Origin: Myxocyprinus asiaticus
Taxonomy: Eukaryota > Chordata > Actinopteri > Cypriniformes > Catostomidae
Direction: 5' to 3'
NCBI RefSeq assembly: GCF_019703515.2
Contig: NC_059349.1
Coordinates: forward strand, 20,990,744-21,054,743
Length of the DNA stretch: 64,000 bases
Position numbers and translations under genes: made by a program. Below, in pieces: positions 16,001 to 61,099 of this stretch (the first letter of the stretch is position 1; each line of letters opens with the position of its first letter). The notes under the pieces were generated by a model. It ran no database searches and was not told the DNA's origin. It was given only the letters and a program-made list of their open reading frames with translations.

Positions 16001-19000
16001 TAATACTGCTACTCATTTCATTTCAATAAAAATAAAAGGCTCATGAGTTTCACAGCATTAGCCACTACATAAGCTGACAGCCACTGAACCAGGCCAGACA
16101 GATAAAAGATGTTTGAATTGTCCTCTGCACTTCTGACACACATCATGCATTAGGCTTAAAAGGGAAGCAGTCTGTGTATAACATGACACAGAAACTCTTC
16201 TGTGGCTAAATCTCAGGTCTCACTTTCGGCCAAGCAAAGACTAAAAAAAGCAAACAAATGGCAGCTTCAGTCTCCACCATGTTTTTCGAGGGCTAGCTAG
16301 TCTCCGGAGTCTGATACCTCAGCTTGAGCTTCCTACTTGCTTGTGAAATGGGTGGGGTGTGTGATGTTGGCATCAGTGCGGCATATTAAGGGTGGGTTTT
16401 AGGCAACGCTGCAGGGCTATTGGCCCGTTGGTGGTCTTGCAGCTCGAGGCCGAAGCTACTGGCTCTAGCTAACCAGTCGATATCCCTGGCTCACACTGGC
16501 CCAATAGTGGAAACACAGCTAATGTCACAGGGGCCAGCGGCCTAATTTTACCTATGAGAGCCTCCTAGAACAGCAGTCCATCTTTATCTATGTAGGCCTC
16601 TGTCTCATTTTGTCTGGATCAGTTTACCAGAACGGTCCCCCTGGTGAAGGTATATCAGTTTACCTGTGAGAGCCTCTCGGTAGAGCTGGACAAAGTGGCT
16701 GAAGATGTCCTTGGGAATGGTTTTCTCATCAGGGAGGCACTGTAGAAGCACTACTACTTCCACCTGGCCCACGGCATGCATACCCTTTGTCGTCATATAC
16801 CAGCACTTCCTATTCACATCTTCAAGCAACAATAACACAAAGGGCATTTATGACTTTTGAGAATTATAGGAAATCTCTCTGTATAGTCAAACACAGCTTC
16901 TCGTGTTTGTAACTTTCCGCAATACCAATTACAATGATTAGTGATATAAAAATGATAACAAATATAATCGCAACACAATTTGAGTTATCGTCCATGTACG
17001 TAGCACAAAGAGTGTGGGATGAGTTACACACCTACATTCAGCACTTAGGGTCAGGTGTTTAGAACAAATCCCTGACCCAAAGTAGGAGCTATAATAATAG
17101 TGATGCCCACCTTTGCAAGCACCACTAATTAATACTACAATAATACATGATGTTAAACTGACTAATAAAAATGGATATTTCACAAAAAAAATAAAACTAA
17201 TAATTCACTCCATAGCCACATAAAACTGTAGACAATGGAGTTTGACCGATAGTGGATTTTGCCGATAACGATAACTAAGGTGGTGAATGGGGCCATCGCA
17301 TTATAGAATGTAAAAATATTTTCTTTGTCTTTCCTTACTATGACGGGCACAGACATAGAGGTTACAAGAGTCCAAAATGAATAAAATCCCTGTTTGTTGT
17401 GCAACCAAAATCCCAATATTAACTTTCTATTTTTTTTTTTTATTGAGTGCACAATGCAGGACTTTTAACTATAAACAAGCCTGAAACACACCATGGACTC
17501 TTATTTTAAAATGCAGAAGAACTTTCTTTTTGAAACAATTTCTGAAGTTGGAGACACATGTATGCGCTGACGGGGCACATTTCCGTATACTCACATTTTC
17601 TTTACATGCCCTCGCTTCAATTTAGAACAATCAATTATCTAATCAAAACAACAAAATACAGGTATGTTTGAAGTGAGGATAAAAATATGGGTGAATATTG
17701 TCAATGATGACAGATTTAGCAAATCCCCATGGGGTGTCAGTGATCATTTTTATTTCACTTCTAGAGGCTGTTTTATTTTGTAGAACCAAGATGTTCTAAT
17801 TGTAGAATCCTCCAGCGCCTCCCACAGAGTAACACAGAGGAATAATAATTAAAAAAAAAAAAAACATCGGCATAGAGTTTTTCCGATAACCGATATTTCC
17901 ACAAAGTAACTATCTGCACTGATTAATTGGTAAAACCGATATATCGGTCTACCTCTAGTAGAGAACATGAAGCAACTAGTGGCATACTCACAGTTGACCA
18001 GTTTGACCATGGCCAGCAAGTTGGCATTGAGAACAAAGACCAGGGGATCAGGACCCCCCTCCTCAAGCTGCTGCATTAGCACAATCTCTGAAGGCCTCTC
18101 CTCCACAGCATAGTCTGCAGACAAGACACTCAATATTATTCTTGTAAATAACACTTTGATATATTTTTCATGGCAAACTCTATTCATGGTACAATTCTGA
18201 TGAGAAACCGTCGTCCCACCCAATGAAAGCCCTCCCTTTGCATGAGTGGTGGAGACATAAGCAGAAACAAAGAATACATGCAAACATACACGCACAGACA
18301 AGCATGAATGCTCATATTTAGAGGAGTGGAGGCAGCTGAATGGTGAGGATGGGCAAGCACCTGTGATGTGGCCTCCCGTACCTCCTTTGATGCCTGTGGA
18401 GATGAGGATGGGAGGAAGCCCATCTTCTGGGATCAGACTAAGGGAGCTGCCCACAGGGCTGGCAGTCGGGGCTACTGGGGCATGGGCCACCTACAACAAG
18501 GTTCAAAGATAAACTTATGGCAGGACACATCCTAATAGGACTGTCTAAAGATCAAATTAAGGGTTACTGTAATTTTTACACATAGCAGAGCAATGAAGAA
18601 AACAAAATTAGGTTGCTTCAGGAAACTCCAGTGCAACATTTAATATACACTTATTGAGCACTTTATTAGGTACACCTGTACACCTACTTATCCATGTGAT
18701 TATCTAATCAGCCAATCATGTGGCAGCAATGCAATGCATAAAATCATTCAGATACAGGTCAGGAGCTTCAGTTAATGTTCATATCAACCATCAGAATGGG
18801 GAAAAAAATGTGGTCTCAGTGATTTTGACCATGGTATGATTGTTAGTGTCAGACAGGCTGGTCTGAGTATTTCTGTAACTGCTAATCTCCTGGGATTTTT
18901 ACACACAATAGTCTCTAGAGTTTAACCAGAATGGTGCCAAAAACAAAAATCATTCAGTGAGCAGCAGTTCTGCAGTCGGAAACGCCTTGTTGATGAGAGA

Positions 19001-22000
19001 GGTCAACGGAGAATGGCTAGACTAGTTCAAGCTGACAGAAAGGCTACGGTAACTCAGATAACCACTCTGTACAACTGTAGTGAGCAGAATAGCATCTCAG
19101 AATGCACAACACATCGAACCTTGAGGCAGATGGGCTACAACAGCAGAAGACCATGTCGGGCACTTTAGTAGAACCATAGTGTTCTTAATAAAGTGCTCAG
19201 AGAGTGTACATCCAAGCAGAAACAGGACACACAGCGAGTTAAATCTGCATGGTAGTAAAATACAATAGCTACCACAACAGAAAATAACGAACAATAAATT
19301 GGACTCAAGACAGTATTTTCAAAATAGGACAAAACTGTGGATATAGGATAGTTATGTGCCTCATTATAACACTGAGTGATGAGGTAAATGTATTGTATGC
19401 ATAAGTATTAACATCATAAAGTAAAAACCTTAAACTTTAAATATATCATAAAAAGTATAAACAATAGGCATAGCCAGTAAATAGTTATTGCACATATACT
19501 CAAGATGCATCACAATTGGAAGAGAAAAAACCCACATATTACTGATAAATAGTTCAGTTTATCAAGCTTAAATGAAACAGTGTAAGTTCTCACATCAGAA
19601 GCATTGGCTGCTGAAGATTTGCTTGAGTACTGGGATGCAGCCACAGGCTGTGGGGGTTTGGGGTTTGCCGCAGGCCCTTCAGCTGAGTCTGTAGCTTCCC
19701 CGTTGGGAAGAATGCCATCAGCAAACCATACCCTTCTCTGCTCTCGAGTTAGTGAACCTGACAGTTTACAAATATGGTGAAGTTGACAAACAGCTAACTC
19801 TTGAGTCTGAATGAATGTCTGTAAAAATCCACAAATTATTTACCATCAGTTCCTGTCTGTTTAAGGACACCGACGGGCACCATAACGGTTGGTGGCGGGG
19901 AGCTGAATGCTCCTGACGCCTGGGCCTGCTGCAAAGGTGGAATAGTGGAGCAGTACTCCGCTGGGTTGTTGGGATTGGGGCTTTGGTTGCAGCCACCTCC
20001 CATATTTTCCAATGCTTGAGCTAATAAGGGAAAGATCACAGGATCTGTTTATTTACACAATAAAACTCAAAATAAGTGGGTTCTTTCTACTTTCACTGTA
20101 CAAAACACTTTAGGAATAACAGTTTTTTTTAATCAATTAATTCTGTTGTAAAGTTTTGGCTTTCTACATTTTTAAATGTTATCTGAATCTCCCAAAATAA
20201 AAAAACTTTAATGGAATTCAAAACTTCTGAATTAGACCTCCATCAGCTTAAAGGTATAGTTCACCCAAAAATGAAAATTCTCTCTTTATTTACTCACCCT
20301 CATGCCATCCCAGATGTGAATGACTTTCTTTCTTCTGCTGAACACAAACGAAGATTTTTTGAGGAACATTTCAGCTCTGTAGGTCCATACAATGCAAGTG
20401 AATGGTGGCCAGAATTTTGAAGCTCCAAAAAGCAAATAAAAGGCAGCATTAAAGTAATCCACACGAATCCAATTTTTATCCAGTTCATATATTCAGAAGC
20501 GATATGATAGATGTGGGAGAGAAACTATAAATCTCCACTTTCACTTTCATTTCCACATTCTTCTTTTGTTTTTGGCAATTCACATTCTTCGTACATATAG
20601 CCACCTACTGGTTAGTGAGGAGAATTTATAGTAAAAAAAAGAACTTAAATATTTATCTGTTTCTACCCACAGCTATCATATCGCATCTGAAGATATGGAT
20701 TTAACCACTGAAGTCAAATGGATTACTTTTATGCTGCCTTTGTGTGCTTTTTGGACCTTCTAAGTTCTGGCCACCATTCACTTGCATTGTATGGACCTAC
20801 AAAGCTGAGATATTTTCTAAAAACCTTCTAGAAAGAAGAAAGTAAGTCATACATCTGGGATGGCATGAGGGTGAGCAAATGATGAGAGAATTTAAATTTT
20901 GGGGTAAACTATCCCTTTAAGAGAAAACTACAGTACGCTAGTGCTGATGACAAATGCCATCAAAAAAATGTTGTGTCATGTAACAATGATTCGTGTTAAA
21001 CGAGAGTACCTGGGAAATTTGATGAGGTTCAAAAACTCCCAGCCTACAAAAGGGAATTTATCATTATTCTTAAGCATAGTTTCACATCACTTACCATTAA
21101 TGAGAGCACGGTGGCAGGTGACACAAACCCTTGCTTCTTTCCTGTCCATATACATCAGTCTGCTTTTCAGACTACAACATGCTGCACAGAATACCTGGCC
21201 AGACACACACAAACACACACACACACACACTTAAAATTAATCTGCACAACAAAATGAAACTAAACAAAAATACTATGGAGCAATTCAGACCAAACACACT
21301 CTTGCATTACAAAAAAGCTAGACACATCACAGTGAAAGGAAACATAGTGCAGATGTCTCAAGACGTGTTTTTAAAAGTTAAAGTTCTTTTTACTTTAAAC
21401 TATTCCAAAGAAGAACATGGCCTTGAAGAATCACAGTTCTGTCAGATTAAAATTTTGCACCACAGCTACGATTCATTTTCACTCAGTTCCTTCCAATTGT
21501 TTCAGCCCATATCTGTGAAAATATCATTAACGATGCAGCAGTTTATCACCAAGGGAAATTAAGGCACTATTCCAGCCAATCCACAGTTATTTTTAAGTGC
21601 TGCAAGACAGCCATTTCTCCCAGATGGATTCTGACAGTTTCACAGGTTTTTAGCTGCCTGACAATTCCCTTCTTGAAATTCATCTCTCTCGTTTTACAGT
21701 GGTATGGCTATCAATTTGTCAAAAGAAATAGCTGCCACATTGTGACATTGCAAAGCAAGTACAGAAAGGAAAGTGACATTTAAACAGTGGGAGGTAGGAC
21801 AATCTTGAATTCCGCTTGAGCACTAATTTTAACTAGATTTTTACAATTTCTGAAGAAAACGTGAGTGGTGCTTGCCTTTGCAAAATTTGCCGCTATGATG
21901 CTAAGGTGTGAGTTGTTACAAGGGCATTGCTACATGATTGTTGTGGTGGTTTTTACATTGCTGTGAGGTGCTAAAGTGTTTGAGATAGTTGCTTCCTGGA

Positions 22001-22391
22001 CCCCCCAAAAAACTGCAGACTGCATAGAAAAGTAATAACACATCTCTCCTCAACAAACCACAGGATTTGATGTATCATTTATGTCTGTAGCACAAACGGT
22101 GCGGGACTAATTATGCTAGAAAGTTTAATACGTAGGTTAGGGGTTTGGTCGAAGTATGATGTGTGCCGCAACATCTCACGCACAGTGCACGTAACATACA
22201 TTTCTTTATTAGCACAGTCCATGCGTGAAGCCCAGTCTTTGTACCTTCTGCGTAATCATATACTTTGAAAGGCTGGAACGCTCAACTGTGCACTAGATTT
22301 AGCAGCACATGGAAAAAACGAAGCATACCCTAGCCATAAGTATGAACAGGGTTGTAAAGTAACATATTACAAATACTCGTTACTGTAATTT

Positions 22392-22424
<33 letters not shown>

Positions 22425-25400
22425 CAGGAATTGATTAAAAATGGTATACTTTTACTTAAGTAAATTTTACGTGCTGTAATTGTACTTTTCCTCTGCTATT
22501 TTCCCTCCATCTGTGTTCACTACATCCCTATCCCGATTTTTTTTTTTATCCATCTCCTTGCTTTGCTAGGGAGAGAATAAACGTGACTCTTGACTCCCGT
22601 CAAATCAAATCACAGAGAGAGACAGAAGGGTGTATAGCATTTGCAACTCAATACTCGAGTACTTTTGAATGAGCTACTTTTTTATCCTTAAGTGGTTTTT
22701 AGGACAGGTATTTTTACTCACACAAATTGTTTTGGGAAGTAACAGTACTTTTACTTGAGTATGATTTTTCAGTACTCTTTCCACCCCTGGGTATGAGCAA
22801 CAATAATTGTGATGCAAGCACCACTAATTAATGAGAAGGAGGCCTTACCTCACCACAAGCTCGACAATGATGTCTTCTTTTAGTGAAGGTGAACTTGACC
22901 TCACACTTCATGCAAATGGGTGCTTGAGAGTCAGGAACCCACACAGGGGCCACCTCCCCCAAGGAACTATAAGGTTTCTTTGAGAAGGCTCCCTGTTGAT
23001 CTGCCTGAAGGTCATTGTCGGGACTCTCAGAAGAAATGAGTAAGGCTGATGAACCATCACCAGTCTCTCCATTTATTCGAACTTCTCCAGACTCTGTTCC
23101 TCCACAAGACAACTCAAGGTCTCCTGTCCTACACTGTGGCTCCAGGTTCTTGTTCTTGCCAGAAGAGCAAAATTCATTCTGGACTTGGCTTGAGAGAGGC
23201 TGGGGAATTTGCAGCTTCAGACTGACAGGTTGTTTTGGCCGCGCACCACCGTAGGGCACGCTGACAGGCTGCAGGCGGTTGTTGTTGAGTTTGCACATTC
23301 TGCCAGCTTCTGATCCCCGAACTGGATCACAACAATCCTGCTTGCTCTCCTCCATCTCCTTTTCCTCTGTCACAGAGTCCTCCTTTGAAGGGACCAGTGG
23401 CTGGCTGTCAGCATTTCTATCAAGGTCCACAATCAGACCATTGAACAGGGACTTCTCCACCCCTGGCGATTCAGCAACTGAGTCACTGTGCATCCCCACC
23501 TGGTCCTTCTCTAGCATTTTGTCTTTCTTTTCCTGATGTGATGTCCAAGTAAATTTCCCTTCACTTTCAGTCTCAACCAGTCCACCATTCTGAAAGGCAC
23601 CCTCATGATTCTCTCTCACGCAGTCTACACTGCCACTGGCCATTTTGTGCAATACTGTTTCCCTTTTCTGGGGAATACTTCCCTCCTGAAATGTAAGATT
23701 ACAGTCCCCCATTCCAACATCCTGGTCCCCTACAGGTGAACCCTCACTGTCAGACTTGCTTGCCTCCATCTCAACAGATGAGACACCATTCTTCAAAACA
23801 GATGGCCTGCTTCCAAGTCCTTCCTTAGGAAAGGGGAAATGAGAGTCATTAAGACCAGTGCCACTTCCCTCATTGGTATCATTCTTCTCTGTCCTAAGCT
23901 CACAGGGCCCAGTGTCTAAAACACTTTGTTGGTCAGTAATAGGTTGACTTTTCTCATTGTTGGCCTGAAGGTCTTCAGAACATCCACTATGATTAGGACT
24001 AGCCGAACAGTGGTTTTCCAGCCCCACTCTGTTGGAGGACGGCAAGTCTGGAAACTGCCCTTCAGTGCTCACCAGCTTGCCAATGTTGGGCTGGGGCAAA
24101 GGGGGACTGTAAACATCTGCCGGCCGGTCCTCACTCCTGCCCTCTGGCTGTTCCCCCTGCCCCCGTTTCCCCTCTAACCTGGTGACCTCAGCCAAAGAGG
24201 AGCCGTCTAAGGTGTGGGACTCCAGAAGAGGCTTGAAGCTGATGGGGCTATCTCTTGGGCTGAGGTCAGAGTGGGTTAATCCAGTGTTCAAGGAAAGGAG
24301 GTGTGACGAAGGGGCCAGAATCTGAGTCCATTTGGCATCGGAGAGAGTCGGTGTGTCTGTATCATCTTAGGAGGAGACAAACGGGGAGAGAGAACTCATT
24401 AGCGTCGTTCTGAGAAAGTGTACAAAGATTGAAACAAATAGAAGATAAAATGAGAAATTAGGTCAGGCTAGATTGGAAAATGTTCAGGAAGTGGGCCATT
24501 CTGGTCATTGCCTTGGGATCCATCTGTCAAAGTGACACATGAATGCTTTGGAATGTCGGCAGGCATTCCCTGTCACTTGCACACACCAAAGATTGATCAA
24601 ACACACTCCCATATCTTCCTCCCTATATTTGCCTTCATTCTGGTGTCCAAGGAGGGCTGTTTTATAGTTTCAAGTCTCCTTTCACCCCAATTAATCTGTC
24701 AAGATTAGTGTCAGAGAGTGGATATACATTCATTCCACCATTTAATGGCAACTCTCAGCATATGTCTGTGTGTGAGTGTTCTGTGACATACAATCAATAC
24801 ATTTCAAACAGTCAGTTTTATATGGCTGTGCACCAGGAGCTGTTGTCTGGATAAGCCAGAACCGAGATCAAAATAAGTCTGACAAAACACTAATTGCAAT
24901 ATCTCGCTATACCTCAAACACACAACCATAACCTTGTAAATTACATATACTTGACCGTCTGACACCAATTAAACAGTCTTGAAATTTAAAAAAAATAAAT
25001 AAATAAATAAAAAGAGAGAAGCAGAAGTCCTGAGGGGAAATGCTAATTCAATTGAACTCATTTACACTACAGAGTGCTGCCACCAGCATGGCTAACTACT
25101 TGTGCTAGCCATGCTTTGTGCAGCTCAACCCAAGCAGCAGTGCCAAACGTTTGATCTACTTGCACCTGCGTTACTCTGTGCTCATTCATTATGCTCCAAT
25201 TCAGCTGACTATGCATGTTATCTGAAGATATTTAAATCTGCTAAAACAAAATAACTTTTGCTCTGGCTAACAATCACTACATCTAACGCATCATTTAATA
25301 CAGAGTACGTTTATTCCCTCAGTTCGTTTCTAGCCCTCTCTTCACACTGACAGCAGGTTTTTTTTTTTTTTTTTCTTCGCAGGAGGTCAACAGGTCACTG

Positions 25401-29045: not shown

Positions 29046-30590
<1,545 letters not shown>

Positions 30591-31719: not shown

Positions 31720-34700
31720 TGTCTGCTAGCTGCCTTGAGACGTCACACAGGTCACATAAACTACAACACATAGAGATTGTATCACCTAGATATCATATAG
31801 AGACTGTGTCTGTTCCCTGAACTACCAAACACAAAACCCTCACTAAATCATTCAGAAAAAATTTGATTACGGTCAAATTTGAACAAAACAAACAAATTAA
31901 AGATAAACATCATATAAAGATAGGGCTACTAAATATTAGATCTCTTTCTAGCAAAGCACAATTGTAAATTAAATTATTACAGATCATAGTTTGGATGTGC
32001 TCTGTTTGACTGAAACCTGGCTTAAACCGGATGAATATATTAGTTTAAATGAATCTACTTCCCCAGGTTATTGTTATAAATATGAGCCTCGTCTGAAGGG
32101 TCGAGGAGGAGGTGTTGCTACAATTTACAGTGAAGTTTTTGGTGTTAATCAGAGGACAGGATATAAATTTAAGTCTTTTGAACTGATAATGCTAATGTGA
32201 CACTGTCAGATATTGATATAAATTTAAAAAAAAACTCTGTCGTCTTTTACCCTTGCTTCAGTATATATATCACCCGGGCCTTATTCTGATTTCCTTGGTG
32301 AATTCGCCATTTTTTTTTTTTATCAGATCTTGTAGTTACTGTAGATAGAGCTTTAATTGTTGGTGACTTCAACATTCACATAGATAAAAAAGTAAATGAC
32401 ACATTGGGATTAACATTTATCAATATTCTCAACTCTCTTGGAGTCAGACAAAATGTAACCGGACCAACTCATCACCATAATCATACGCTAGATTTAATTC
32501 TGTCATATGGAATTGATGTTGATACTATAGAAATTCTGCCGCAGAGCGATGACATCTCGGATCATTACCTAGTCTCTTGTTTGCTGCAATCATCTAATGT
32601 TACTCAATCTACACCACGCAATCGTTCAGGTAGAACTATTCTTTCGACCACTAAAGATAGCTTCACTAATAATATTCCAGATCTCTCTCATACACTCAGT
32701 AAACCCCAAAGCCTAGAAGAACTTGATGAAATAACAGAAAATATAAATACAGTCATCTCTAGCATTCTTGATAGTGTCGCACCCTTCGATTAAAGAAAAT
32801 TAAAGAAAAAAGCCTTAAACCATGGTACAATGATCACACTCATGCTCTAAAGAGAGCAGCTCGGAAAATGGAGCGCAAGTGGAAGAATACAAAATTAGAG
32901 GTATTTTGCAGTGCATGGAAGGATAATGTCTGTAGCTACAGACAGGCACTAAAAGCTGCCAGGTCAGAATATTTGAGCAAACTCATAGAAAATAACCACA
33001 ACAATCCTAGGTGTTTATTCAGTACTGTGGCTAAACTGGGGAATAGAGCCTCAACTGAACCAGATATTCTGTTGCAGCACAAGAGTAATGACTTCATGAA
33101 TTTCTTTACTGATAAAATTGAAATAATCAGAAATAAAATTGGAATTTATGCAATCATCTGTCACAGCACCTCAGAAAACAGTGTCTCATAATTTTTCTCA
33201 CGTGCAACTTCAATCCTTCACTGTCATAGGTCATGAAGAGCTAAAAAAAAACTGATCGAAACATCAAAAGCCACAACATGTTTGTTAGATCCAATACCAA
33301 ACAAGCTTTTAAAAGAGGTATTCCCTGTAATCTCAGAACCCCTTCTTAATATTATTAACTCCTCGCTATCCTTAGGACATGTCCCAAGAAACTTTAAAAT
33401 GGCAGTTATCAAACCGCTTATTAAGAAGCCACAACTTGATCTTGGAGAACTGGCTAATTATAGACCGATTTCAAATCTCCTGTTTATGTCAAAAATACTA
33501 GAAAAGGTAGTATCCTCCCAAATATGTTCATTTCTACAGAGAAATGGTATATATGAACAATTTCAGTCAGGATTTAGGCCTCATCACTGTACAGAGACTG
33601 CACTTATCAGAGTTACAAATGACTTGTTCTTATCATCTGATCGCGGCTGCATTTCTCTTCTAGTGCTTTCAGATCTTAGTGCTGCCTTCGACACGATAGA
33701 TCACAACATTCTTTTGAATAGGCTAGAGCATTATGTTGGCATTTGTGGAGTTGCATTAGAATGGTTTAGGTCCTATTTAGCAGACCGCTACCACTTTGTC
33801 TATGTAAATGAGGAATTGTCAAACCAAACAAATGTAAAGTATTAAGCGCCACAGCGATCAGATTTAGGGCCTCTGCTTTTCTCCTTGTATATGCTTCCCC
33901 TGGGAGATATTATCTGGAATCGTGGAATAAGTTTCCACTGTTATGCCGACGATACCCGACTTTATATTTCTTCAAAACCTGTGAGATTTTACAATTCTCC
34001 AAATTAGCAGAGTGTATCAATGAAATAAAAGATTGGATTGCCAGAAATTTCCTTCTACTCAATTCCGACAAAACAGAGGTACTAATTATTGGACCAAAAA
34101 CCTCTAAAAATAAGCCGCTAAAATATCATTTGACTCTTGATGGATGTACTTTACATCATCTTCAACAGCGAAGAACTTAGGTGTTATATTTGATACCAGT
34201 CTGTCCTTTGAAAATCAAATTACCAATATTTGTATAACAGCATTCTTCCACCTAAGAAATATTACTCAATTACGACACATGCTCTCTGTTGCTGATGATG
34301 AAAAACTAATTCATGCATTCATGACCTCAAGACTAGATTATTGTAATGCATTACTGGGAGGATGTCCAGCAAGATCAATAAATAAACTTCAAATGGTTCA
34401 AAATGCAGCAGCCAGAGTGCTGACAAGAACCAAGAAATATGATCATATTAGCCCAATTTATCATCGTTACATTGGCTACCTGTTAAATTTCATATTAATT
34501 TTAAAACTCTGCTAACTACATACAAAGCTTTGAATGGTTTAGCTCCACAGTACTTAAGTGACCTTCTACCACGCTATATTCCATCACGTTCATTACGATC
34601 GCAAAAGTCTGGCCCGTTAATAGTCCCTAGAATATCAAAATCCACAAAAGGAGGTAGATCCTTTTCATATTTGCTCCTGCACTATGGAATAGTCTCCCTA

Positions 34701-40781: not shown

Positions 40782-42609
40782 CAGCGGCAAGAAAAATTAT
40801 GTGATCCCTTTGGAAATAACTGCATTTCTGTATTAATTTGTCTTAAAATCTGCTTTGATTTGAAGTTATAATAATGAACAAACACAATCTAATTTGTAAC
40901 TAATAACACAAATTATTGTATTGTTCTTCTACAATAAAAACAACATTCAAACATTCAGTGTAGATTGGAAAAAGTATGTGAAGTCAACAACAGCTAAATA
41001 GAGTCAGGAGTTGTAATCCTGGCATCCAATCAATGAAACAAGATTGGAGGTGTGGGTTAGAGCTACTTTGACTTATAAAAAGCACTTAAACATTTTGAGT
41101 TTGCTATTCACAAGAATTGGGTTCATCTGTCCAAAGTTAGACAAATTGTCTATAAATGGAGATGATTTAGTACTGTGGCTCCTCTCCCTAGAAGTGGCCA
41201 TCCAGCCAATAAGACTCAAAGCGCAAACAGCAGAATACTCAATGAGGTAAAAAGGACCCTACAGTGACAGCTAAAGACTTGAGGGGATCATTGGAACTGG
41301 TTAACATCTCTGTTTGAGTCTACTATATGGAAAAAATTAAACAGGCACAGTATCCATGGCAGGACAAAGGAAGCCGCTGCCTTCCAACAAAAAATAAATA
41401 AATAGCTGTGCGCCTGAAGTTTGCCAAAGAACACCTTGACACTCCACAACGCTGCTAGGAAAATGTTTTGTGGACTGATGAAACTAAGTTTGAATTGTTT
41501 GGGAAGAACACGCAGCACTACATATGGTGTAAAAAGGGCAACGCATACCAACATGAAAACATCGTCCCAACGGTGAAGTATGGTGGAGGGAGCATCATGA
41601 TTTGAGGCTGCTTTGCTGCTTCGGGGCCTGGACCGCTTGCCAACAGAGGAAAAAATTAATTCCCAAGTTTATCAAGATATCCAACAGGATAATGTCAGGG
41701 TGGCTGTGTGCCAGCTGAAGCTCAGTAGAATTTGGGTGATGCAGCAGGACTAGGCCTGTCACATTAATTACGTTATCGACTTACCGTACAATATTTGGAC
41801 ATGACAATGTGGCAATACAACTAACCTAAATGCTCATCTTAAACATAACCATCCTATCAAGTTTTCTGAGCTGGGAACAAAAACCGCAGTTGGAGATGGA
41901 GAGGGGCCTTCCCAACTTTAAGTTTTTTTGACATTCCAATGTCTGAATATTCTTATTAAGAATTAAAAGTTCATTGCTCTTTGAAAGGGTGTACTTGCAT
42001 TATTATGCTATTATATTATCATTATATCAGTGGCATAAAATGGTCTTAAAATGACAATAATATCGTTTATCGCAATTATTTCTGGGACAACATATCATCC
42101 ACAAAAGTGCTTATCGTGACAGGCCTAAGCAGGACAATGACCCTAAACATCGAAATAAACCCACTACAGAATGGCTTTTGGAGTGGCCCAGTCAGAGCCC
42201 AGACCTTAACCAAATAGAGATGCAGTGGAATTCCATTAAGAGAGCTTTTCACACCAGACATCAGAAGAATATGGCCGAGCTGAAGCAGTTCTGTAAGGAA
42301 CAATGGTCCAAAATTCCTTCTGAACGTTGTGCAGGTCTAATGCGCTGCTACTGGAAACTCTTGGTTGAGGTTATTGCTGCCAAAGGAGGATCGACCAATT
42401 ATTAAATCCAATGGTTCACTTTTTCCACAGCACTGTGAATGTTTAATGGGATGTGTTCAATAAAGACATGAAAGATTATAATTGTTTGTGTGTTGTTATT
42501 AAGCACATTGTGTTTGTGTATACTTGTGACTTTGATGAAGATGAGATCACATTTTATGACCAATTAATGCAGAAAACCAGCCAATTCCACATACTTTTTC
42601 TTGCCACTG
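40782..42609 (+). mobile_element. Tc1 element interrupted by a hAT MITE
   Basis: Terminal repeats CAGCGGCAAGAAAAATTATG and ATACTTTTTCTTGCCACTG, flanked by TA (40780-40781, 42610-42611). Transposase remnants on the plus strand include a C-terminal frame (42178-42405) with SQSPDLNQIEMQWNSIKRAF. Several stops and the insertion at 41751-42127 inactivate it. Confidence 0.85.
41751..42127. mobile_element. hAT MITE inserted in a Tc1
   Basis: 377 nt with perfect 12-bp terminal inverted repeats TAGGCCTGTCAC/GTGACAGGCCTA and a perfect 8-bp target duplication AGCAGGAC (41743-41750, 42128-42135). Removing it rejoins the Tc1 transposase sequence. Confidence 0.92.
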
Positions 42610-50801: not shown

Positions 50802-52038
50802 CACTATATTGCCAAAAGTATTCGCTCACCCATCCAAATAATTGAATTCAGGTGTTCCAATCACTTCCATGGCCACAGGTGTATAAAATGAAGCACCTAG
50901 GCATGCAGACTGCTTCTACAAACATTTGTGAAAGAATGGGCCGCTCTCAGGAGCTCAGTGAATTCCAGCGTGGTACTGTGATAGGATGCCACCTGCGCAA
51001 CAAGTCCAGTCTTGAAATTTCCTCGCTACTAAATATTCCACAGTCAACTGTCAGTGGTATTATAACAAAGTGGAAGCGATTGGGAATGACAGCAACTCAG
51101 CCACGAAGTGGTAGGCCACGTAAAATGACAGAGCGGGGTCAGCAGATGCTGAGGCGCATAGTGCGCAGAGGTCGCCAACTTTCTGCAGAGTCAATCGCTA
51201 CAGACCTCCAAAGTTCATGTGGCCTTCAGATTAGCTCAAGAACAGTGCGTAGAGAGCTTCATGGAATGGGTTTCCATGGCCGAGCAGTTGGATCCAAGCC
51301 ATACATCACCAAGTGCAATGCAAAGCGTCGGATGCAGTGGTGTAAAGCACGCCGCCACTGGACTCTAGAGCAGTGGAGATGCGTTCTCTGGAGTGACGAA
51401 TCACGCTTCTCCATCTGGCAATCTGATGGACGAGTCTGGGTTTGGTGGTTGCCAGGAGAACGGTACTTGTCTGACTGCATTGTGCCAACTGTGAAGTTTG
51501 GTGGAGGGGGGATTATGGTGTGGGGTTGTTTTTCAGGAGCTGGGCTTGGCCCCTTAGTTCCAGTGAAAGGAACTCTGAATGCTTCAGCATACCAAGAGAT
51601 TTTGGACAATTCCATGCTCCCAACTTTGTGGGAACAGTTTGGGGATGGCCCCTTCCTGTTCCAACATGACTGCGCACCAGTGCACAAAGCAAGGTCCATA
51701 AAGACATGGATGAGCGAGTTTGGTGTGGAAGAACTTGACTGGCCTGCACCTCAACCCGATAAAGCACCTTTGGGATGAATTAGAGCGAAGACTGCGAGCC
51801 AGGCCTTCTCGTCCAACATCAGTGTCTGACCTCACAAATGCACTTATGGAAGAATGGTCAAACATTCCCATAAACACACTCCTAAACCTTGTGGAAAGCC
51901 TTCCCAGAAGAGTTGAAGCTGTTATAGCTGCAAAGGGTGGGCCGACATCATATTAAACCCTATGGATTAAGAATGGGATGTCACTTAAGTTCATATGCAT
52001 CTAAAGGCAGATGAGCGAATACTTTTGGCAATATAGTG
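50802..52038 (+). mobile_element. Tc1 element, nearly complete
   Basis: Terminal inverted repeats CACTATATTGCCAAAAGTAT and ATACTTTTGGCAATATAGTG, flanked by TA (50800-50801, 52039-52040). 1237 nt, close to the usual Tc1 size. Both ends look intact, so it could in principle be mobilised in trans. Confidence 0.93.
50936..51956 (+). pseudogene. Tc1 transposase with frameshift and mutated catalytic Glu
   Basis: ATG at 50936 opens [20 protein letters not shown], followed by paired helix-turn-helix, GRPRK hook, then catalytic VLWSDESRF (first Asp), [10 protein letters not shown] (second Asp). At about 51747 the Q-S-P-D part of the usual S-P-D-L-N-P-I-E motif is lost with a frame change. The other frame resumes [19 protein letters not shown], so the third catalytic Glu is Lys, and ends at TAA 51954-51956. 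Confidence 0.9.
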
Positions 52039-52214
52039 TATATCAAATGGGATACTATTTAGTAATTTAAATATTTTCTTAAATATAATATCATGTACTT
52101 TGTGTTTACATACACTGTGTTGTGTGTTAATGCATTAGTGTTGGCATACAAATAGCAATACAAATCTTGAATCGCAATTATCAGATACATTTTGTGTTAT
52201 ATACAAAAGATATA

Positions 52215-52747
52215 CACTCACTGAGCACTTTATAAGGAACACCTGTACACCTACTTATTCATGCAATTATCTAATCAACCAGTCATGTGGCAGCAGTGCA
52301 TAAAATCGTGCAGATGCAGGTCAGGAGCTTCAGTTAATGTTCACATCAACCATCAGAATGGGGAAAAAATGTGATCACAGTGATTTTGATTGTGGCATGA
52401 CTGTTGGTGCCAGATGGGATGGTTTGAGTATTTCTGTAACTGCTGATCTCCTGGGATTTTCACACACAACAGTCTCTAGAGTTTACTCAAAACAAAAAAC
52501 ATCCAGTGAGCGGCAGTTCTGCAGACGGAAATGAGATGAGAGGTCAACGGAGAATGGCCAGACTGGTTCGAGCTGACAGAAAGGCTACGGTAACTCAGAT
52601 AACCACTCTGTAGAATTGTAATGAGCAGAATAGCATCTCAGAATGCACAACACGTTGAACCTTGAGGCGGTTGGGCTACAACAGCAGAAGACCATGTTAG
52701 GCACTTTATTATGACCATAGTGTTCCTAATAAAGTACTCAGTGAGTG
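52215..52747 (+). mobile_element. Tc1-derived MITE, copy 2
   Basis: Terminal repeats CACTCACTGAGCACTTTATA and AATAAAGTACTCAGTGAGTG, flanked by TA. It has the same internal deletion junction (GCAGAAGACCATGT then GCACTTTA) as copy 1 at 18648. Confidence 0.87.
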
Positions 52748-52799
52748 TATACACAAATGCTCCATAGGCTATAGATAATTTGGAGTGTATAGATAAAGT

Positions 52800-52965
52800 G
52801 ACCATTCCAGAATGTGCACTACAATTGCGCTACCTCTGCATCTGCACTATGTGTCACATATCTTGCCCTTTTTATTTACTTCTGTTTATTCTTTACATGA
52901 TGAATTGCACCTTGTGGAGTCACACAGACAACTTGTGCTGTGGCAATAAAATGAATTGAATTTAA
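52800..52965 (+). repeat. LINE-type 3' tail fragment
   Basis: Ends CTGTGGCAATAAAATGAATTG, the form of many fish non-LTR 3' ends. It lies downstream of thpo, where a thpo 3' UTR could run. Confidence 0.4.
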
Positions 52966-53307
52966 ACTTACTCCACCTTCATGGCTGTAAGATAAATATA
53001 AAATAAAATATTATCTGTGATACAAAATGTCCTTTAGGACTTACCAGAAAAGTTTTGGTTTTCAATCTTAAATGTTCAGTGGGTGCATAAGTCAGTGCTT
53101 GTAGTTTAGCTATGATCCAGTAGATGGGACAGTGTTGCCATTTTCACATCTTGTACTTTTTTCCATTTTAACACAGCTGGTGATCTCCTGCAAAGTGCAT
53201 GGCGCTCCATTTTCTTGAAGGTGAACCATTCTTAAAATTGATTGGGCCTGTCTGGTTCCATTATACAAGGCTGAAGAAAGGCAGTGATTAAAAGTCAGTT
53301 TTTCAGT

Positions 53308-53445
53308 CTAGCACCCTTTCGCCATCTCTGCAACAAGCCACTCCAGCTTGCCTGTGAGCAGACGCCCAAAGTGCCTCAAAACCAGACCCAAATCCTTAGA
53401 GTCCTGACCCAGACAGCTCTTTGCCTGAGTCCCTGCTTGCTCCCC
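53308..53445 (-). CDS. thpo: thpo exon 5, helix D and stop
   Basis: 138 nt, GEQAGTQAKSCLGQDSKDLG then LVLRHFGRLLTGKLEWLVAE and MAKGC, stop TAG at 53308-53310. The L-x-H-F-x-x-L-L-x-G-K-L pattern resembles helix D of EPO/TPO. Acceptor TCTGGTCCACCAG. Confidence 0.83.
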   Translation of the reverse strand, partial: GEQAGTQAKSCLGQDSKDLGLVLRHFGRLLTGKLEWLVAEMAKGC

Positions 53446-56400
53446 CTGGTGGACCAGACAAAGATGGACAGAAAGGGGAAAAATGTTCACTCTAAAAATA
53501 ATCATAGTATGCAGTGAAAGGAGAGCAACAAGAGTGACTTTTACTGTGTGATGAAAATGAATGAGCTACTTTTGAATATTAGAATACTGGGTCAGCATTG
53601 ACATCTTTGGAAACATAGGCTTTGTGTCTGAAATGATTTTTAAGTTCAGTCATGAAACTCTATACGACACAAGTTGATAAGTCCTTATCATATAATCTTG
53701 CGTACTACATGGCACAAGCTGATAGGTCATTGTAATGTAGTCTTTAATCCAATCAGGTGTTACACCTGTATTACTCCAGTGCACTATGAGAGATTTCACT
53801 CTGCGCCAGAGGTGGGTAGAGTAGCCAAACACTTTACTCAAGTAAAAGTACAATTACTTAAAAAAATTACTCAAGTAGAAGTAAAAGTAATCATGTTAAA
53901 AATGACTCGAGTAAAAGTAAGAAAGTATCCAATAAAAAGAATACTCAAGTAGTGTGTAACTAGTTACGTCCACATATAATGTAATGGATGTTTACTCTCC
54001 AGTATATTCCAGTACATGATACACATTTAACATGCATTACAGAATGATTATTAATAATAATAATAATACAATTATTTATATCATTTTTAATAATGGAAAT
54101 TGTCATCATTCACCACCATGTTGTTCCAAACCCACATCTGGGATGGCATGAGGGTGAGTAAATGATGCAAGAATTTTCCATATTAACTATTCCTTTAAGG
54201 AGATTTTAGACAGAATGCTAGCCTTAATCATCATTTACTTTCACTGCATGTTTTTTCCCCTCCATATTTTGAAAGGGAATGGTGACTGAGACTGTCAGTC
54301 TCTAACATTCTGTCTAACATCTTTTGGGTTCCACAGAATGCAGAAAGTTTCACTGGGTTGGAAGAACATGAGGGCAGGGAAATGATGATATAATATTAAT
54401 TAAAGGCTGAACTATCACTTTAATCAAATCAAATCAAATCACTTTTATTGTCACACAACCATATACACAAGTGCAATAGTGTGTGAAATTCTTGGGTGCA
54501 GTTCCGAGCAACATAGCAGTCGTGACAGTGATGAGACATATACCAATTTACAATAAACATCAGATTTACACAACACTATTTAAAATCTAATATACACATA
54601 ATTACACACAACACAATATACAAATAATAACTTACAATGTACAGTATACAATACACACAATATAGATACACATTATACAATAAAAAAAATAGTAATATAT
54701 ATCTAAAAATAGTATATATAGTATATATAAAATATACAATAGGTTGTATTGTACTGCTGTATTGACATTCAGGCTGTCGGTTGATAGTAAGTTGCCAGTG
54801 TGTTGTTAAGAGAATATAATTTATGACAGTCCGGTGTGAGATAATAAGATTAATAAAGTGCAGTGCTGATGTATTTTGATCGTGAGAGATCAAGAGTTCA
54901 AAAGTCTGATTGCTTGGGGGAAGAAGCTGTCATGATGTCGGCTTTAAGGATGCTTCTCAGATTTGGACGAATCTGTCAATTAGGAGAGAAGTTTGGAAAC
55001 CTTTTTCTAGTAATTATTACGGTGAAAAACGTTAACAGTGTCACACAGTCCCAAATTATATATGAAGTTTAACACTGAAGCAAGATAATGCTTTATTCAT
55101 GCCTTCTGTCATTATTTCACAGCTTTTTACATCCTGCATGAATTTAGTTCAGTGACGGACCGGCATTGTCGGTGTCGAAAGCATTTAGATAACTAGTTCT
55201 GTACACTAAGGGTAAATTGCACCTTATCTCTGTGTTTGGAAGCTTGTTGTCCATAAGACAAAGTCGCACGCATCTGTCAAACGCTGTGCACGCGAAACTT
55301 AATGTGGATGTTTACAAGGATTTTTACAGTACGCACTGTTATGTTGCAGCGCTGATATAAAAATGCAAACTTAGAAACTGAGGTCATAAGAGCCCATAGT
55401 TACAGATTCACGATGAAAATGAATGAGTATCACCATGACACAGACAAGCCCACATTTTCACAATCTCAAACTTACCTCAGCGTGTTTTCTTAAGTTGGAG
55501 CTGCAATATTAATCTCAAAATATATCCTTGTCTTGGTGTAAAATGAAGGCATTGTGTGGAGTGAAGAAATGTTTGTTTTGTGCGCTTGCTTCTGTAGTGT
55601 TGAATGCGACTCAAGTGACAGCGTGCAGCAGTTGTGAAGTTCCGCTGTCGTAAGAGTCCCATTCAAAAATCTCAATAAATTTCGCATTTATTAACACTTT
55701 AAAACCAGTAATATAATGACAGGAACGCTACCCATTGTAAAGAAGTAAAAGTAAACAAATTTCATCAGAAATTTACTTGAGTAAGTGTGAAAAGTACCCA
55801 CCATAAAACATATTTTTTTTCCCAAAAAGTTACTCAAGTAAATGTAACGGAGTAAATGTAGCACATTACTACCCACCTCTGTCTGGCACCATCCTCCTCC
55901 TCAGCACCACCTGTCTAGATGGATGTCTCTAGCAGAAGAAAGTCTTCGTACTTGTTCTGCTGTAGCATAAACAGATCTAGTCTGCCAAGTTCTATTTATT
56001 TAAATTTATTCCGATAGTTGTTATGACTGAAATAAAGTAGTTATTCACAAAAAGAGTAAAAGTTAGCCTCAACTCAGCACAGTACGTGCTTGATTGTAAG
56101 AGTGGCAGTATGTATATTTTATCAGTGGGGCATGGCTATAAAGCACTTCAGATAGCACTATGTTCCCATTCTCCTCACTGGTCAAGTATGTGTCTCAATC
56201 TCCCTTTCTTTCCTAGGGAAGGAAGGCAGAGGTCAACTGGAGTCAGAGTCTCCAAGATGAAATAAACAAAGATTCCGGGAAGGCAGGATATTTTCTTGAA
56301 CACTACGTGGTCCCTCAAATATGGGAAACGAATGAAGAATTGCATTAAATTATAATGGAAGTTATTCTAAATTTATTTTGTAAGCCAGTTATTTTTAATT

Positions 56401-59400
56401 CATATTCTTAAAGAAAGTACATTTGTTTTAAACAATAAGGAATTATACCCCACACTTTTAACGTGTTATACAATCTAGAATATTTGTGCTATACTATATT
56501 AACCTCTTTAACTCTGGGGCATTTTTGGGCTGCCGCCTGCAGTTTTTCACACTCAAATTAAAAAGCTCACCATTTACACATACTGTGGACTAATTGCCAA
56601 AAATGTGTCTAATTTTTTTTATTGTTGTTGTTGTCCTAATTTGTAAGCATGGAATGCTGGTTCTGTTCACTGCATCTCCCTCCAAAAAAGTCTTATTTTA
56701 TTCCACTAGATGACAGCAAGTACTAGAAAAGTTTTTTCCTCTAATTCGGATCTGAGATGTAGGTGGCGCTATAATGCTTTTTATCACAGATGTGCTCATC
56801 CATAGACATTCAGTCTAATTTTCATTTCATGCACCACCTCCATTGTTTTATTGAATATATTGGCCTCTGAGTGGACTGGAAGCTAGATATTTTTCTAATT
56901 ACATGCTATTTGAAAGACTAATATTCATATTAATATGTCTACCACATGACCTCTAGGTGGCGCTGATTTGCGACGCAAATGTTTTCAGGCCTTATTTTGT
57001 TCTTTTATGTAACATAAATGCAGACATGATGTTATCAATGAAAAGTTCAGATTCTAAGCTTTCAGATGATGACATATGTCTGACTTATGTATTTGTAGAC
57101 TTGAACATTTTAAGCGTAAAATGTTTCCGTGGCATAGCGCCCCCTTTTGGATCCGTCAGCGGGTGAGCAGAGTTAAAGAGGTTAAATCAGTAAGTTTGAA
57201 CTCTTGCAATAAGCTCATTGTAATGTTTAGTGAAATTTCACTCTGTAAGAATAACAAGTGCTAATTTGTGTGCATTTTTACTATTTTGGAGTATGATATT
57301 GTTGTCAGGCCTGTGGTAAATTATACGGCCTTATTCTGTTTTTTTAATTACAAGTTTTGCAGTTTGGAATCAGTTTCTCATCTTTATTTTAGTGAGTAAG
57401 TTCCTTGTTAACACAAGCAGCCCACAATCAATCTGTATAAAGTTTAACCAATATTTTTGCCAATATCTATCTGTGAAGCAGCACAAGCTTGAACTGCTCA
57501 TCCTCACCTCGTTGTAGAGTAGTTTCACTACATGCAGGTAGTTGTTGATACTGTGTTCTAAGCGCTCCAACAGAGTGAGCGCACAGCCAGGATGGCTGAG
57601 TGTCCTGGCAGACCGCACATCCTGCGCTAGAGTCCACAAAGACAGCAGGATCTCAGCTCTCCGCTCATGCACCTGGAACACACACATTGGTGTCTCAGAG
57701 AGCGTGCACCCGTGAGTAGCATGAGTGGGTGGATGTTGTAATGGAGGGAGTGTGTGGGAGTGGGCTGCATACAACGACTCACTGATTTCTTCTCCCAGGT
57801 TGCTTTGTGAATCCTGATGCATGGTAATTGAATAGAAGAGGGTAGAGAAGCTACAGCACTGCAGTCTACCTGTAAAGGGAGCAAAAAGCACAGCCCATCA
57901 AATGTCTCGTTGGTGGATAGACAAGCAGAGATTTAGACTGTCAAACTAAATCAATAAGCAAGATAACAGATGTCGCCAATACAGAGGATGACAGATGTCT
58001 GTTAACATGCAGATAGGTAGACACTGACATATGTCAGATATCTGCCAAGTGGAATGTCACATGCAGACATCCTAATGAGGCATTTATGATGAAACCTGAG
58101 ATATATCTGTAATTCTTTCTGCATAAAATATAAACAAACATACAAGAAATGTTAACTTGACAAATCATAGCCTAATTCAAATGATTGATGCCAAAATAGG
58201 GGTGACCAGTTGTTACACTTTGTAGTGAATATAGGGTATAAGTGAGTTTCTGTATTGGCACATACTTTGAAGTCTTTGCTACAAAAAAGATATCGAACAT
58301 TTTCTCTGTTATTGTCTATTGAAAAGATATAATATGCCAATAGTAGGGCATGTTGTCATGGTATATGGAGGAGCTGCCATTAAACAGCCTATTATGGACA
58401 AAATGTATACAGGAAAATAAGTATGACACACAAACAATTCATGAAAAATCTGAAATGTAAAATATAACATACAGTATAAAACTATCACACCATTGTTTTG
58501 GTCAGCAAATTTTGTAATAATAAAAGATTGACACATAATACACATATTAAAAATGTCCTAGTAAAAATGTGACAAATTTAAATTCAATTTAATTCAATTT
58601 AAGGTTCTTTAGGTATGATTTAATTTGTAATAATTAATTTTGATGGGAAAGCCAGTCAGTTCAATGGATGAATATCTTTCCAGATACCTTTTCCAAAATG
58701 AAAATGTCTCAACTGACCTTTTAACAGTATATTTTAACCTGAGATACATACGGTGTGAGGTAAGCACTTAAATGCATTGTTGGTACTGTTTACCACCTGA
58801 TGAGTTACAACTTTTTACATCTGGAGTAGTTGCCAAAGTCTTACCATCTCCTCTTCTAAGTCCTTAACCTTGTTCATGACTCTTCTGGCCTCACTGTCAC
58901 ACACAAAGTCAATTGGTCTAGCGTGAATGTGAGACAGTTCAGAGGCAATCATGCTCAACACTACTACCAGCACCCCTGTGAGACAACCAAACAGATTACA
59001 TTACATGTATTAGGTGTAGTAGTAACACTTTATACATTAGGCCCACTAAACAATGGTACATTATAAAAAGTTAAAACACTAGTTAATGTATAATACTAAA
59101 ATTCAACTATAAGTACCCTGAAAAAAATGACTAGTAAGATTTTACTTTTTATTTCGCAAGTTTTTGCGCACAGTTTTTCTAAGTAAATTATATTGGTATA
59201 AAATTAAGTAAAATCTACTTAATCCATGGCATAATATTGTTTAAAAGTGAATAAGTAAATTTAACATAAAAATTTCAGTTAATACAGTAAATTTGACTTA
59301 CAAATCTGATACATCAACTTAATAAAACTACAATAAACAATTCTTTTATAAACACATTTAATTATGTAGCACATGACATACAGAAATCTTCCACAGCAAA

Positions 59401-59591
59401 GCTCAGTTCGTGCTATGCAGTCTATTAGACAACATCATCTTCCATTATTGGCAACGCAGACCACAACTCTTGGTGCACAAAACACGATGACGGTTACAGT
59501 CAACAGATATTTTATTTTTTATATTTTGAGTAGCTCTCTAACCGTTTTCTATGGAAGTTATCATTCATGAATACTCACTACTTAAATCCAT
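53308..59591 (-). CDS. thpo: thrombopoietin-like cytokine (thpo), spliced CDS, 5 exons
   Basis: Secreted four-helix cytokine that would act through the Mpl receptor on thrombocyte and progenitor development. Coding exons: 59579-59591 (13 nt), 58845-58975 (131), 57783-57869 (87), 57508-57672 (165), 53308-53445 (138). All are GT-AG, phases 1,0,0,0. Together 177 residues: a hydrophobic signal peptide (MDLSRVLVVVLSMIASELSH to IHA) and a 154-residue mature chain beginning RPIDFVC. Mature cysteines at 7, 28, 84 and 154 parallel human TPO 7, 29, 85 and 151; the C29-C33 pair of erythropoietin is absent. Exon sizes also follow the EPO/TPO pattern. Two extra cysteines occur at 42 and 120. The glycosylated C-terminal half of mammalian TPO is missing and no N-glycosylation sequon is present. 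Assignment rests on structure and remembered family features. Erythropoietin is the main alternative and fits less well. Confidence 0.85.
54120..54199. repeat. foldback MITE, terminal fragment
   Basis: Contains CATCTGGGATGGCATGAGGG and ends TATTCCTTTAA, like the right arm of 20252-20916. Confidence 0.6.
54421..54985 (-). mobile_element. non-LTR retrotransposon 3' end
   Basis: Read on the minus strand: a frame near 54957-54900 gives SFFPQAIRLLNS and a stop, the C-terminus typical of fish reverse-transcriptase LINEs. A long 3' UTR follows, ending GTGACAATAAAAGTGATTTG with an ATTTG-type tail (54421-54440). 5' truncated. Confidence 0.65.
55882..56502. other. thpo intron, nothing recognised
   Basis: No gene or repeat ends visible. 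Confidence 0.4.
56503..57181. mobile_element. TTAA-flanked MITE with perfect 14-bp inverted repeats
   Basis: Lies between TTAA at 56499-56502 and 57182-57185. Ends CCTCTTTAACTCTG (56503-56516) and CAGAGTTAAAGAGG (57168-57181). 679 nt, no transposase frame. A TTAA duplication fits piggyBac or Kolobok. Confidence 0.78.
57508..57672 (-). CDS. thpo: thpo exon 4, helices B and C
   Basis: 165 nt, VHERRAEILLSLWTLAQDVR then SARTLSHPGCALTLLERLEH and SINNYLHVVKLLYNE: two amphipathic helices around a Pro-Gly-Cys turn. Acceptor TGTGTTCCAG, donor GTGAGGAT. Confidence 0.87.
57783..57869 (-). CDS. thpo: thpo exon 3, A-B loop
   Basis: 87 nt, VDCSAVASLPSSIQLPCIRI then HKATWEKKS. The length is the same as the corresponding human EPO and TPO exon. 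Acceptor CCCTTTACAG, donor GTGAGTCG. Confidence 0.85.
57870..58844. other. thpo intron, nothing recognised
   Basis: Intron 2. AT-rich; no repeat ends resolved. Confidence 0.45.
58845..58975 (-). CDS. thpo: thpo exon 2, signal peptide and helix A
   Basis: 131 nt after TTGTCTCACAG. Encodes VLVVVLSMIASELSHIHA, then RPIDFVCDSEARRVMNKVKD and LEEEM: signal peptide core, cleavage after Ala, helix A with Cys7. Donor GTAAGACTT. Confidence 0.86.
58976..59578. other. thpo intron 1, nothing recognised
   Basis: AT-rich, with AAGTAAAATCTACTT-like repeat sequence around 59110-59300. Confidence 0.4.
59579..59591 (-). CDS. thpo: thpo exon 1, coding part
   Basis: ATG at 59589-59591, reading M-D-L-S plus one base before a GTGAGTAT donor. 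A 13-nt coding start in exon 1 is characteristic of the EPO/TPO family. The 5' UTR extends toward higher coordinates, end unknown. Confidence 0.75.
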
Positions 59592-59767
59592 GCCTTTACA
59601 ACCTGAGATCTTCAGTCGCGTTGTTTGCCATTGGAGCGTCTTTTTCTCATGAAGTATTGCGAAAACGCCTACCAATGTTTGTCCTTCTCCACCTTATATA
59701 CTACGCTACTATGCACGTTGTCCCCACGCTTTCTGATTTCATCTGCTGTTCCTTTCACGGCTGGGAC

Positions 59768-59771
<4 letters not shown>

Positions 59772-59830
<59 letters not shown>
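59772..59830. repeat. (TA)n microsatellite upstream of thpo
   Basis: 59 nt of TA about 180 nt upstream of the thpo start codon, within or next to its 5' UTR or promoter. Confidence 0.95.
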
Positions 59831-59832
<2 letters not shown>

Positions 59833-60999
59833 TAGGCTACATATCTCGTCTCTAAAAATGCCACGACTTTCCTTTAGTGAGTCATTCCACACTACTCACA
59901 CTACTTAGCCAACATAGTAAGTGAGGGTTGGATAATAATTTACTACCAAATGCCGTATACGATAGTGGATACAGATGCACTCGCACTTCTTAAATTCTAC
60001 ATAAATAATAATGCTTTTTTTAAGGCTAAACAAACAAAACAGGGCTATTTTAGATCAAGTTAATATTTTATTACTTGATCAGTCAGCTAGCCTAAGTTAA
60101 TTGCCAACATCCAATAGGACATTACCTTTTTTTTTTTTTTTACATACATACATAGACCATACAGTCATAAATATTAGTATTTTTTTTACTTTTACTCATT
60201 TTATTTTGTTATGGACGCCGTTTACATTTATTGTAGCCTTCAAATGTGAAATAAAATGACATCTGAAGTGCATGTTTGTGCAGGTGTTTGTGTAATCTCT
60301 TTGACCTGGTAAATACTTTGGTAGGAGCTGAATAAAACAAATATTCATGATAAAAGAGACACCAGCAGCTGCTGGTCATGAAAGTAGGCCGTCTGACCGC
60401 ACTCATTCAGCTCTGATTCATACGCATTCCCGCTTTCTTTTAATCACGATTACTTAAAGTGATAGAGATCCTTTACCTTGATCCAACCAACAAGACATCT
60501 GAATCTGGTTTTCGGCCAAAGTGAAACAAACTCATTGTCACTGCCTTCACATTGTGGGTGTATGGAGAAATGCAGCAGTGGGTAAAACACCTGTTGTCTT
60601 TGAATTTGGCAAAACAACTGTGGCCTGTCTACATTTCTAGACACGAGATTTTTTTGTTTTTGTTTGTTTTTTTAAATTCCAGAGTATTTCTCTGAGCACC
60701 CTCTCTCCTCAGTGCCGAAATAATATTGCGCATGCAGCCCACCAGTCACAGATGAGAGGGTTAAAAACAGGATAGGGCAAAAAGCCTGTAATCCTTGGAG
60801 TAACTGCAGTCATTGAGATGGATGGGTGGATAGATAGATCAACAGAATGCACTGATTAAGACAAATGCGCCATCACTTGGCATTAATGATGGGCAATAGA
60901 AGTGGAGTCAACCTGCTCTAACTAAACCAGTGACGGAACCCGCATTGCATCACAGAATCAATTCTTGGCCAGTGCACGCGCCACAGGCTCTGCCGGCTT
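59831..60999. other. thpo upstream region, nothing recognised
   Basis: AT-rich with T runs near 60128 and 60652. No coding evidence. Confidence 0.4.
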
Positions 61000-61099
61000 A
61001 ATTACTCTACCTATCAGCGCGTGCAGGGCACACAAATCTGAGCCCTTCAGGTGATGCATTAATACAGTCAAGTATGTGTTAAAGGAAGCGTTCGTCTTT

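Follow-up and report, generated by a model that had tools for sequence, protein, structure and literature searches.

The 64,000-nucleotide stretch of DNA analyzed here (contig NC_059349.1, positions 20,990,744 to 21,054,743; "the window") carries on its minus strand a gene, thpo, for thrombopoietin (TPO), a hormone that promotes the making of clotting cells; its coding sequence is spread over five small exons. Joined, these exons of 13, 131, 87, 165, and 138 nt form a 534-nt open frame encoding 177 residues and a stop codon. All four introns start with GT and end with AG, confirming the exon coordinates, lengths, and joined frame proposed in the initial annotation (Table 1). We take the exon sizes of 13 and 87 nt to be reminiscent of mammalian TPO and erythropoietin (EPO) genes. 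The encoded protein contains six cysteines at precursor positions 30, 51, 65, 107, 143, and 177, corresponding to mature positions 7, 28, 42, 84, 120, and 154 given a presumed mature start at Arg24. It stops right after Cys177, lacks the glycosylated C-terminal half of the mammalian type, and has no N-X-S/T sequon in its 177 residues, as had been noted initially.

Thrombopoietin identity

A Pfam scan of the window protein returned EPO_TPO (PF00758) alone (E=1.8e-10; 41.7 bits versus a cut-off of 25). With phmmer, the annotated Myxocyprinus asiaticus thrombopoietin isoform X1 (P0001) matched at E=1.2e-99, with equal length and 92% identity over the full length. Among the 58 proteins that matched, all functional names were thrombopoietin except that of P0015 ("erythropoietin-like"), the remainder being "hypothetical," "uncharacterized," "unnamed," or unlabelled. 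Searches against solved structures placed human and mouse TPO on top when a single sequence was used (E of 1e-5 to 4e-4, with EPO weak at 0.035 and 0.038), and a 21-sequence profile gave 40 to 43 bits for TPO versus 28 to 29 for EPO.

Comparison with fish proteins separates the two hormones further. The window protein scored 263.6 bits with a profile of 26 non-cypriniform fish TPOs versus 38.9 bits with a profile of 40 fish EPOs, the latter comprising every third of the best 120 of 284 fish EPOs. Similarly, the BLASTP check against both families matched all 73 TPO-type proteins at 328 to 85 bits, with EPOs (best 120 of 284) at no more than 48.5 bits. A 32-row tree splits TPO from EPO with support of 100/100 and places the window protein nearest M. 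asiaticus TPO.

The cysteine pattern agrees. Counts of this kind were made on 51 intact sequences out of the 73 TPO-type proteins, 22 having been dropped as truncated, mispredicted, or lacking an aligned residue where one was needed; sequons and CxxxC were counted by simple patterns. The CxxxC motif (EPO C29-C33 type) is found in 118 of the best 120 of 284 fish EPOs and in 1 of the 51 intact fish TPOs, and it is absent from the window protein. The four core cysteine positions (C7-C151 and C29-C85 of TPO), all present in 50 of the 51, are kept. The protein of the window gene thus falls with fish TPO and away from fish EPO, and both the TPO identity and the TPO-like cysteine spacing put forward earlier hold.

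Fold, cysteines, and C terminus

The predicted structure of P0001, which stood in for the window protein, is a four-helix bundle (pLDDT 80.4, pTM 0.76). Its structural ranking lists TPO chains first (PDB 8g04, 1v7m, and 8u18, human and mouse TPO), whose fold the model shares. The window protein would likewise be secreted and fold as a four-helix-bundle cytokine, with classical disulfides expected between Cys7 and Cys154 and between Cys28 and Cys84; its core cysteines C7/C28/C84/C154 compare with C7/C29/C85/C151 in human TPO (PMC4685256). It would bind Mpl and, like zebrafish Tpo, support the formation of thrombocytes and progenitors. Zebrafish Thpo (P0012) has 79% identity to it, the same six cysteines, and no long tail.

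Human TPO has no cysteine aligned to the two additional ones, Cys65 and Cys143 (mature 42 and 120). Within the 51 intact fish TPOs, 39 have both, 7 have Cys65 alone, 5 have neither, and none has Cys143 alone, so that Cys65 is lost only from sequences that also lack Cys143 (Fisher P of 0.0003, ignoring relatedness). The 39 come from cypriniforms, characiforms, a gymnotiform, mormyrids, tarpon, eels, bonefish, salmonids, a smelt, and the pipefish-family Stigmatopora. Cys143 is missing from all nine named catfish TPOs counted (P0037, P0041-P0043, P0059, P0060, P0062, P0063, and P0066), five of which also lack Cys65, and from two salmonid rows and one unlabelled row (P0071). Since all five sequences without Cys65 are catfishes, these losses represent one clade rather than five events, and the 7 of 51 that keep Cys65 without Cys143 count against a strict pair.

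In the P0001 model, Cys65 comes immediately after strand 56-64 and Cys143 immediately before strand 144-150. The corresponding strands of EPO pair antiparallel; if those of TPO do the same, Cys65 and Cys143 would face each other. A third disulfide, Cys42-Cys120 in mature numbering, is therefore plausible in teleost TPO, and it would staple the A-B strand to the C-D strand. This bond, suggested initially for the window protein, gains support from the cysteine distribution and from a structure prediction in which both cysteines abut predicted strands; it is not proven, and the modelled protein was P0001. We do not claim it as a first description, our literature search having covered open-licence papers only. 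Judged from the sequences, the extra pair is widespread in teleosts and not particular to the window gene. Its presence in most fish TPOs examined could stabilize the hormone without the sugar-rich half of mammalian TPO. Separately, the catfish proteins P0037, P0041, P0042, and P0043 show N-glycosylation sequons; that catfish sugars replace the extra bond is speculative.

The missing C-terminal half and sequons had been read as marks of an unusual "minimal TPO." This view does not stand. Mammalian TPO has a glycosylated C-terminal half (PMC4628740), which the window protein lacks, and PMC4628740 and PMC4685256 describe the C-terminal domain as missing from non-mammalian TPO, which makes the short form unremarkable. 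Indeed, the 51 intact fish TPOs end 0 to 9 residues past the last cysteine, and in 37 of them the simple pattern finds no sequon downstream of the first DF. The 0-to-9-residue count alone is no proof against long forms, since the TPO set came from a search with the window protein and its relatives, limited to 0.55 to 1.75 times the query length, so that long-tailed TPOs were out of reach; it returned no non-teleost TPO. Taken with the published descriptions, the absence of tail and sequons is ordinary in fish TPO, and the window gene is an ordinary fish thrombopoietin.

Two gene copies and a truncated public form

The locus is already in the public record, and the initial description of the gene as "hidden" is not supported. 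P0015, annotated as M. asiaticus "erythropoietin-like isoform X2" (146 aa), is identical to the window protein over its first 132 residues, which are exons 1 to 4 exactly, and its last 14 residues, QNKYEDFLLLETSI, are encoded in window intron 4 (55959-55915). For both reasons the P0015 record almost certainly derives from the window. This public model is misnamed and truncated before the last helix, and the present reading would correct it.

P0001 has the same 177-residue length as the window protein without gaps, the same six cysteines, and no sequon, differing by 15 substitutions, 5 of them among the 45 residues of exon 5. P0001 and P0015 lie on different chromosome-size contigs, of 56.9 and 56.3 Mb respectively, making homeology the natural reading. 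For the Chinese sucker genome, PMC8412299 describes a duplication specific to catostomids, homeologous chromosomes, and a modal Ks of 0.184. We conclude with high confidence that the window gene belongs to a pair of thpo homeologues in a tetraploid catostomid, almost certainly M. asiaticus, and that P0001 is the other copy. The pair offers a case for following the fate of a blood hormone after genome doubling. Second, divergent TPO-type proteins forming their own clade (99/100) were also seen in Albula (P0034/P0064), Anguilla (P0039/P0061), and Gymnothorax (P0040/P0051); this elopomorph protein may be a duplicate that arose in the teleost genome duplication.

Intron 4 spans 4,062 bp and holds the alternative terminal exon together with two insertion-like segments, the larger of which we take to be hAT-like. 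A gap of 33 bp separates the end of the tail exon from this larger insertion, and the first AATAAA after the exon in the gene's sense, at 55692, lies inside the insertion. A tail exon forming part of the transposon-like segment was rejected, as it sits immediately beyond that segment's inverted ends. When intron 4 was compared by BLAST with the remainder of the window, five short matches came out, none over the tail exon, and an Rfam scan of 52000-61000 found no structured RNA at gathering scores. Intron 4 would have grown by insertions, and the terminal exon beside one of them could give rise to a shortened product that lacks the last helix and corresponds to the public form.

Several points weigh against an intact, TPO-encoding homeologue. 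P0015, the only annotated protein found from the window copy, does not use exon 5, and the exon 4-exon 5 junction is a prediction from the sequence. Homeologue status is a probable reading, and the pairing of the window protein with P0001 in the tree has support of 94/88, below the star threshold. The structure model was made from P0001 rather than from the window protein, and in its ranking the lowest TPO chain (15.9) tied with the best EPO chain (15.7). Further, 117 of the 120 fish EPOs (best 120 of 284) match the window protein in BLASTP, weakly and as expected for two hormones that form one family.

An alternative is a decaying homeologue, whose main product would be the 146-aa form. Without exon 5, that form has no last helix, Cys143, or Cys177 and for this reason could not fold as normal TPO; it would be inert or at most a weak competitor. 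P0015 is indeed the sole public protein found from this copy (in a database clustered at 90% identity), the tail exon lies close to a transposon-like insertion with AATAAA, and 6 of the 7 derived changes in the window copy occur at positions on which at least 7 of 8 outgroup rows agree. We nevertheless consider decay unlikely. With changes polarised by eight other cypriniforms, the derived amino acids of the window copy do not outnumber those of P0001 (7 versus 8), and exon 5 is intact, with three of the seven window-derived changes versus 9.5 expected without constraint (P=0.015); this expectation rests on the genome-wide modal Ks and one small exon, and a recent loss of use is possible. An intact exon-5 equivalent occurs in 51 of the 73 fetched fish TPO-type proteins, and isoform X1 of the P0015 record may include exon 5.

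A more elaborate version is more doubtful still: that after duplication the homeologue splices into a new terminal exon beside an insertion-supplied polyadenylation signal, making a truncated TPO without the last helix its main secreted product, perhaps as a dosage brake on the intact homeologue, and that, separately, teleost TPO in general has an undescribed third disulfide clamping the A-B and C-D loops. That the gene encodes EPO or a paralogue resembling it, in line with its public name, is very improbable, given the profile scores, the missing CxxxC, and the tree split described above. Least credible of all is a chance assembly of exons or a processed or pseudogene remnant, which the presence of introns with canonical splice sites, the frame without internal stops, and the full-length phmmer match dismiss.

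Upstream region and neighborhood

Two short open reading frames (ORFs) and a putative TATA-like box precede exon 1. Upstream ORF 2 is similar to an extension (MES..TEDLML) that the annotations of cyprinid thpo (P0006, P0009, and P0012) show in frame. In zebrafish Thpo (P0012) this N-terminal extension has 14 residues, whereas its window counterpart is a separate upstream ORF. Because of this resemblance, the upstream ATG may have switched between upstream ORF and extension among relatives. In humans, an upstream overlapping ORF keeps THPO down, and a change in this ORF causes hereditary thrombocythemia (PMC7617937).

Table 1. Features of the thpo locus and its surroundings (window coordinates)
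Feature	Coordinates	Strand	Remarks
TATA-like box	59693..59700	-	TATATAAG; upstream of exon 1; putative, read from sequence
Upstream ORF 1	59612..59650	-	12 codons plus stop
Upstream ORF 2	59596..59631	-	MANNATEDLRL plus stop; ends 4 nt before main ATG
thpo coding exon 1	59579..59591	-	13 nt; ATG, GT donor; first residues as in P0001 and P0015
thpo exon 2	58845..58975	-	131 nt; presumed signal peptide, first helix, Cys30
thpo exon 3	57783..57869	-	87 nt; Cys51, strand 56-64, extra Cys65
thpo exon 4	57508..57672	-	165 nt; helices 78-102 and 107-128; Cys107
Second insertion-like segment, intron 4	56492..57192	.	701 bp; 25-nt inverted ends, 88% complementary
Alternative terminal exon, intron 4	55915..55959	-	QNKYEDFLLLETSI plus stop; single exact match in window; preceded by ...TACAG; ends P0015
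Transposon-like insertion, intron 4	53807..55881	.	2,075 bp; perfect 13-bp inverted ends CAGAGGTGGGTAG
thpo exon 5	53308..53445	-	138 nt; extra Cys143, strand 144-150, last helix, Cys177, stop
Transposase ORF, HTH_Tnp_Tc3_2	50846-51778	+	310 codons stop to stop; adjoins thpo
Further transposase/reverse-transcriptase-type ORFs	29897-30349, 32302-32793, 33237-33845, 42061-42405		those at 32302 and 42061 below Pfam cut-off
SARA/ZFYVE9-like pieces	~4742-24366	-	downstream of thpo

In human and Xenopus, the neighbors of THPO are POLR2H and CHRD (PMC4685256). The window extends 4.4 kb beyond thpo on the upstream side, and the only other host gene recognized among the 12 window ORFs chosen for a Pfam neighborhood scan, from which other genes may have escaped, is SARA/ZFYVE9-like. 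Its pieces include a FYVE domain, SARA_C pieces, and a ZFYVE9 structure match (E=1.2e-26), and we infer that they form one gene. Between this gene and thpo lie transposase and reverse-transcriptase ORFs, some of them below the Pfam cut-off.
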